From: Candidatus Saccharimonadota bacterium
Lineage (GTDB): Bacteria; Patescibacteriota; Saccharimonadia; Saccharimonadales; Saccharimonadaceae
Direction of reading: 5' to 3'
DNA length: 64,000 nt
Assembly: GCA_027450165.1 (NCBI GenBank)
Contig: DAIDKE010000001.1
Span: forward strand, 1-64,000
Below the pieces are notes generated by a model. The model made no database searches, was not told the DNA's origin, and saw only the letters and a list, made by a program, of their open reading frames with translations. Of this stretch, positions 32,888 to 33,027 are shown piece after piece. The stretch's first letter is position 1; every line of letters begins with the position of its first letter. Both the position numbers and the translations under genes were made by a program.

Positions 32888-33027
32888 ATTCACTAAAGAG
32901 GTCTGGGTCATATTCTCCGAACAAAACATTCCGCAGCCAGAGGCTCCAAGAGATGCATGCTCTACTTGGAACCCTGCGCGAGGACGTTTTGAAAGGAGAT
33001 ATATGACCCAGTTACTTTTTAGTGAAT
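32888..33027. repeat. Nested inverted-repeat element 3
   Basis: Outer stem ATTCACTAAA/TTTAGTGAAT (32888-32897 with 33018-33027) includes the last two codons and stop of the LysM-CHAP gene. After a small internal loop, CTGGGTCATAT/ATATGACCCAG (32903-32913 with 33001-33011) and TCTCC/GGAGA follow. The core forms CAAAAC/GTTTTG, CGCAG/CTGCG and CCAAG/CTTGG pairs. The core differs from copies 1 and 2 but shares GCGCGAGGAC with them. Confidence 0.8.

Follow-up and report, generated by a model that had tools for sequence, protein, structure and literature searches.

Two families of dispersed hairpin elements with copy-specific arms in Saccharibacteria

Saccharibacteria carry two families of small, non-coding, dispersed hairpin elements, here called F1 and F2, which have the same anatomy: a conserved core enclosed by two arms that pair with each other and that differ from one copy to the next. 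Individual copies are present in one species and absent from another, some lie in frame inside protein genes, cores can be inverted between species at a shared site, and the elements are indifferent to stop codons. Our preferred explanation, to which we assign a probability of roughly 0.55, is that a conserved core disperses through the genome and that strand switching at the hairpin copies a flank, thereby matching the arms, and sometimes inverts the core.

Three palindromes in the window

The window, the whole 64,000-nt stretch of DNA analysed, belongs to a genome (G000; 794 kb, 99.5% complete, 7 contigs) that was read stretch by stretch. A lysM-TM7 RNA and the closest relatives of its uvrD assign this genome to Saccharibacteria. 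A preliminary description had reported three long palindromes in it, each with one arm formed by a gene end, and all three were confirmed in place. As described, one arm contains a stop codon and the other is its inverse copy; in each case the stop is that of a minus-strand ORF (NUDIX, uvrD and LysM-CHAP) and falls in the right arm. The absence of a T-run at all three and the sharing of GCGCGAGGAC by all three also held. Their fold z-scores range from -5.2 to -10.6, with 0 shuffled sequences folding as well.

F1 is defined by an 83-nt core common to elements 1 and 2, and a third G000 copy lies at C3:50038. Between NUDIX and uvrA, the element 1 core (29584..29666, +; 99.9 bits with covariance model R1) is flanked by a copy-specific left arm (29570..29587) that is complementary at 18 of 18 positions (100%) to the right arm (29663..29680), the latter comprising the last codons and stop of the NUDIX ORF (29670-30197, -). 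The same site is occupied in the congeneric genome G001, where the arms differ and are still partly paired. In element 2, the left arm (50477..50502) is 92% complementary to the right arm (50578..50603), which holds the last codons and stop of uvrD (50595-52721, -); the core between them (50499..50581, -) lies inverted when compared with its G001 counterpart at this junction. With respect to the gene upstream, the core of element 2 points the opposite way to that of element 1.

The core of element 3 had been described as different. It does differ, yet it matches the model built from elements 1 and 2 weakly (20 bits, E 0.0041), and we regard element 3 as a diverged relative of F1. This core (32911..33002, -) has a framework of GTCCTCGCGC, an inner hairpin unlike that of F1, and GGCTGCGG. 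By folding, its left arm (32888..32918) forms an interrupted stem with the right arm (32995..33027), which includes the last two codons and stop of the LysM-CHAP ORF (33019-34284, -). Element 3 was also considered as a separate family, for which no convincing homologue appeared among 100 relatives. At the start of the LysM-CHAP gene lies a lysM-TM7 RNA (RF03005; window 34229-34360, -), a known cis-regulatory RNA of Saccharibacteria.

The three F1 copies of G000 (window 29584, window 50499 and C3:50038) adjoin uvrA, uvrD and uvrB, respectively, a neighbourhood that may be due to chance. TATAAT-like boxes of the next gene lie close downstream of all three.

Two families with one anatomy

The R1 model found 23 copies of F1 in 11 of 198 genomes. 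F2, first met as palindromes with loops near 79 nt in an inverted-repeat scan of the whole G000 genome, has a 96-nt core in which a three-way junction bears two hairpins that vary; the corresponding model (R2) located it in 33 of the 198 genomes, with up to 17 hits per genome, and 84 copies were analysed. The 198 genomes belong to one family and are mostly metagenome assemblies. Both element families are mostly confined to one GTDB family (Saccharimonadaceae-level), with a few exceptions elsewhere in the order, F2 copies among them. With their arms, F1 and F2 measure about 110-150 nt, are palindromic and are dispersed in several copies. Matches to the conserved cores reach E values down to 1e-34, and in the aligned cores stems have changed on both sides. 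Copies from one genome are not independent of each other, and the gene contexts given below rest on simple ORF picks and are approximate. Rfam 15 covariance models, run at gathering and at permissive thresholds, gave nothing credible for the elements, and we found no description of such elements in Saccharibacteria in the literature searched, coverage of which was partial.

Pairs of copies that stand side by side in opposite orientation, with their arms nearly abutting, recur in several genomes (e.g. G000 C1:259288/259421 and C2:148320/148454; G001 C3:19686/19800). Outside both families, G000 has two more palindromes with long arms, whose loops measure 95 and 64 nt (C4:41312-41438 and C4:95038-95135).

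Arms that match within each copy

The arms of a copy are roughly 15-30 nt long each. Their pairing exceeds the 99th percentile of controls, in which flanks of different copies are combined, in 70% of the F1 copies and 89% of the F2 copies. Among same-genome pairs of copies whose cores are at least 90% identical, 34 of 36 have unrelated arms that pair within each copy, and a terminal inverted repeat common to family members is thus absent. In G000, copies 2 and 3 of F1 have cores that differ by one base (99% identical) and no common arm beyond about 8 nt. Unrelated arms on near-identical cores exclude slow compensatory evolution from a common stem, unless the cores were homogenised separately. 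The two remaining pairs, in G039 and G139, share their arms, showing that arms can travel with the core.

Mismatches within the stems were read on the sense strand for copies in co-directional and in-ORF contexts, where 50 G-U stand against 56 A-C, indicating no tolerance of G-U pairs in the transcript. Relative to the core strand of F2, there are 56 G-U versus 119 A-C mismatches, or 51 versus 94 when inner positions are skipped. This asymmetry was considered as the mark of a strand-specific intermediate; it is only suggestive, because it is carried largely by G139 and weakens without the inner positions.

Stop codons and gene ends

The preliminary description saw a mechanism behind the stop-containing arms of all three palindromes. 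Beyond the window this pattern dissolves: the arms of the G000 F1 copy at C3:50038 end before the stop codon, and a stop falls within an arm in 22 of the 84 intergenic copies, against 62 copies with stop-free arms. A scan of 738 gene 3′ ends in G000, fixed beforehand as the refuting test, compared the last 30 nt of each gene with the inverse of the next 15-220 nt and found no excess of inverse copies (at a score of 10 or more, 8 matches where permuted controls gave 4.6; at 11 or more, 2 where they gave 1.8). Where a gene border lies within 10 nt of an element, the arm runs through it at 8 of 8 gene ends and 5 of 5 gene starts. Overlap with a border therefore depends on distance, for starts as for stops, without specificity for stop codons; a copied stop codon is a mere consequence of an element sitting tight against a gene end. 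Among the mechanisms offered earlier, insertion with an inverted target copy and template switching survive without their emphasis on stop codons, while a structure that depends on the departure of the terminating ribosome does not account for copies in the middle of ORFs. F2 occurs more often between convergent genes (24 copies) than between divergent genes (13 copies), and the orientation of its core relative to co-directional genes is balanced (18:14).

Copies inside genes

One in-frame F2 copy lies in the mnmA gene of the window (ORF 42513-43700, -). Its core (43168..43263, -) matches R2 with 77 bits (E 1.4e-23), and arm pairing together with the coding alignment places one arm (43146..43167) over conserved mnmA codons (LKLA) and the other (43264..43287) as an imperfect inverse of this conserved side. 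Most relatives are without the insertion: between two conserved motifs, most have 28 residues versus 76 in G000. Further in-frame F2 copies reside in genes that we named by reading their translations, namely a THUMP-type methyltransferase, topA, ABC-F, rnhB, dnaX and mutM. In-frame insertion in conserved genes is seen for F2; the F1 copies of the window lie at gene ends. Copies in ORFs nearly always have one orientation relative to the gene, as expected if only insertions that keep the frame survive, and in mnmA an inverted core would probably disrupt the reading frame.

At the same mnmA loop, other relatives (G017, G019, G007, G022, G021, G004, G003, G061 and G074) have different long in-frame insertions of 24-65 residues (L317-L325). 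Six of these fold with z-scores of -4.1 to -10.6, approximate values since the shuffles keep base composition only, and none matches R2. This loop seems to be a place where palindromic elements from unrelated families accumulate. The insertion of G004 has a stem of about 30 bp, and that of G021 (L321) contains GTCATTCCGGACTTGATCCGGAATC, a motif that we take to recall the palindromic repeats of Rickettsia and Wolbachia.

Empty and shared sites

Comparison of G000 with G001 shows gains or losses, as several G001 copies occupy sites that are empty in G000; for F1, eight G001 and three G000 copies have only two sites in common. The polarity of these differences comes from this one congeneric genome, about 76-85% identical, and outgroups settle gain versus loss at mnmA, at the methyltransferase and, more loosely, at uvrD. 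The cleanest empty site is that of an F1 copy found in G001 only (L132). There, G000 reads GCGCGACTAGTGCTATAC without a hairpin, while the G001 element is bordered by GATTA and GTGTTATAC and carries CGCGATTA at one end and the inverse of it at the opposite end; a direct target duplication is absent at this one clean empty site. At a copy on G001 contig C6, GTCGCCAG from the flank of the empty site (GTCGCCGG) is likewise mirrored. At several sites where the ancestral sequence is identifiable, one arm consists, in its outermost 6-10 nt, of gene sequence that was already there, and the opposite arm carries the inverse of this sequence. At empty sites, nothing in the ortholog corresponds to the inner 12-18 nt of the arms, and L136, L137 and the methyltransferase copy (G000 C4:71837) show little or no mirrored ancestral sequence, so copying of a flank is an incomplete account of the arms.

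The two genomes have five occupied sites in common: NUDIX/uvrA, uvrD, C2:84200, C4:34609 and mnmA. At three of them (uvrD, C2:84200 and C4:34609), the core is inverted between the species relative to the flanking genes. At another locus of G000 (C3:38460-38580), a full copy in G001 corresponds to a 12-bp perfect hairpin whose loop keeps only what appear to be the two ends of the F1 core (TTCTTTCGCTCGAGAA), possibly a deletion derivative of an F1 copy.

Origin of the mirrored arms

From these observations we infer strand switching as the cause of the mirrored arms and of the inversions. The conserved core would be the part that spreads, and strand switching at the hairpin during DNA replication would copy one flank to the other side, keep the arms matched afterwards and invert the core now and then. 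Copies would persist in intergenic gaps and, if the frame is kept, in loops of essential proteins that tolerate them. Template switching between inverted repeats homogenises their arms and inverts the spacer (PMC8604942), and it creates hairpin stems (PMC8794818); inversion of the core is therefore an expected by-product of the process that also matches the arms. What would move the core was sought among two kinds of enzyme. A Y1 (HUH) transposase (PF01797) occurred in 1 of 21 genomes, itself without detected copies, and neither an IS200-type transposase nor a reverse transcriptase (PF00078, present in some other genomes) was found in the copy-rich genomes G000, G001, G054 and G139, so both candidates were set aside.

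Several other origins were weighed against strand switching. It is conceivable, if doubtful, that a mobile element writes an inverted copy of its target beside itself on insertion, so that each copy gains a target-specific outer stem. We also regard it as unlikely that the elements insert into the loops of pre-existing hairpins, such as terminators and other palindromes, whose halves would then be the arms. The F1 copy of strain TM7i (G196) does split a classical terminator with a T-run, several G139 arms resemble terminator stems (CCAATAACC.../...GGTTATTGG), a short hairpin resembling a terminator stands in the ortholog of the convergent G001 junction C2:22977, and the frequency of F2 between convergent genes agrees with this, as does the described insertion of YPAL next to dyad symmetries (PMC2229807). 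However, the empty sites at L132, G001 C6, the methyltransferase and mnmA are free of palindromes, F2 also occurs in coding sequence where relatives have none, and uninterrupted palindromes with arms of at least 18 are rarer in G000 than those that bear a core. Old sites with co-evolving arms of their own, and gene conversion that keeps the cores of a genome alike, make a rather improbable origin: presence/absence differences are several and shared F1 sites few, and new arms are not explained by conversion alone. It would account for the cores of G000 copies 2 and 3 resembling each other more than the orthologous G001 copy resembles either, and for the NUDIX core, which shares a site-specific change (AAAATT) with its G001 ortholog on one side and has the family consensus on the other.

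Selection at the RNA level would keep the outer stem as a terminator, as a protector of mRNA 3′ ends or in some other role, with the arms changing by compensatory substitution. Strong folds, the frequency of copies downstream of genes and compensatory differences at shared sites (e.g. TAG/CTA versus TAA/TTA at the NUDIX junction) speak for such selection. Even so, it is a very improbable cause of the arms, which are unrelated in G000 copies 2 and 3 despite their near-identical cores; both orientations are about equally common, copies lie within ORFs and between divergent genes, and those of the window are without T-runs. The core inversions, together with the missing G-U preference on the transcribed strand, fit strand switching of DNA better than selection on the transcript. 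That the inverted copies are chimeras of assembly or amplification (fold-back reads) is hardly credible, even with most genomes being metagenome assemblies: the same sites recur in two species, copies occur in single-contig genomes such as G196, those in essential genes are open and in frame, and the cores are conserved.

Relation to known elements

Conserved cores with site-specific stems offer many natural replicates of long perfect hairpins arising and staying perfect, and they caution against taking compensatory changes in a stem as proof of a functional RNA. The elements also explain extra loops in essential proteins such as MnmA.

Several known systems have features that were compared with those of F1 and F2. 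An intrinsic terminator has a stem followed by a T-run, which the three window copies lack and the TM7i copy has. REP/RAYT and IS200-like elements are marked by a Y1 (HUH) transposase, and retro-elements (retrons and group II introns) by a reverse transcriptase, hallmarks that were absent from the copy-rich genomes searched for each. The coding palindromes of Nematomorpha mitochondria are likewise long inverted repeats in protein-coding genes (PMC6649704), but there both arms encode conserved protein sequence and a dispersed core is lacking. Template-switch mutations at inverted repeats resemble our elements in arm homogenisation, stem extension and spacer inversion (PMC8604942, PMC8794818); they are local events at chance repeats, whereas here they would act around dispersed conserved cores and produce new arms at every site. 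Bacterial MITEs (Correia/NEMIS, RUP, ERIC and YPAL) are also short, non-autonomous, dispersed hairpins with presence/absence differences, and YPAL targets sites at or near dyad symmetry (PMC2229807). F1 and F2 differ from MITEs in lacking a terminal inverted repeat that is conserved. They may differ in two further respects, as a direct duplication of the target was missing at the single clean empty site and the Y1 search of copy-rich genomes turned up no cognate transposase.

The closest known kind, compared by description rather than by sequence, are the Rickettsia palindromic elements (RPE) and their Wolbachia relatives. These are about 100-150 bp long and strongly palindromic, lie both in intergenic regions and in frame inside conserved protein genes, form several families per genome and have an unknown mover (PMC2229807, PMC10969869). 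RPE are listed with 12-bp terminal inverted repeats common to a family, whereas the terminal stem of F1 and F2 differs per copy and partly mirrors the target; in view of this we call them a variant of RPE and not members. Protein-coding palindromic elements being known mainly from Rickettsia and Wolbachia, the set in Saccharibacteria represents an independent lineage.
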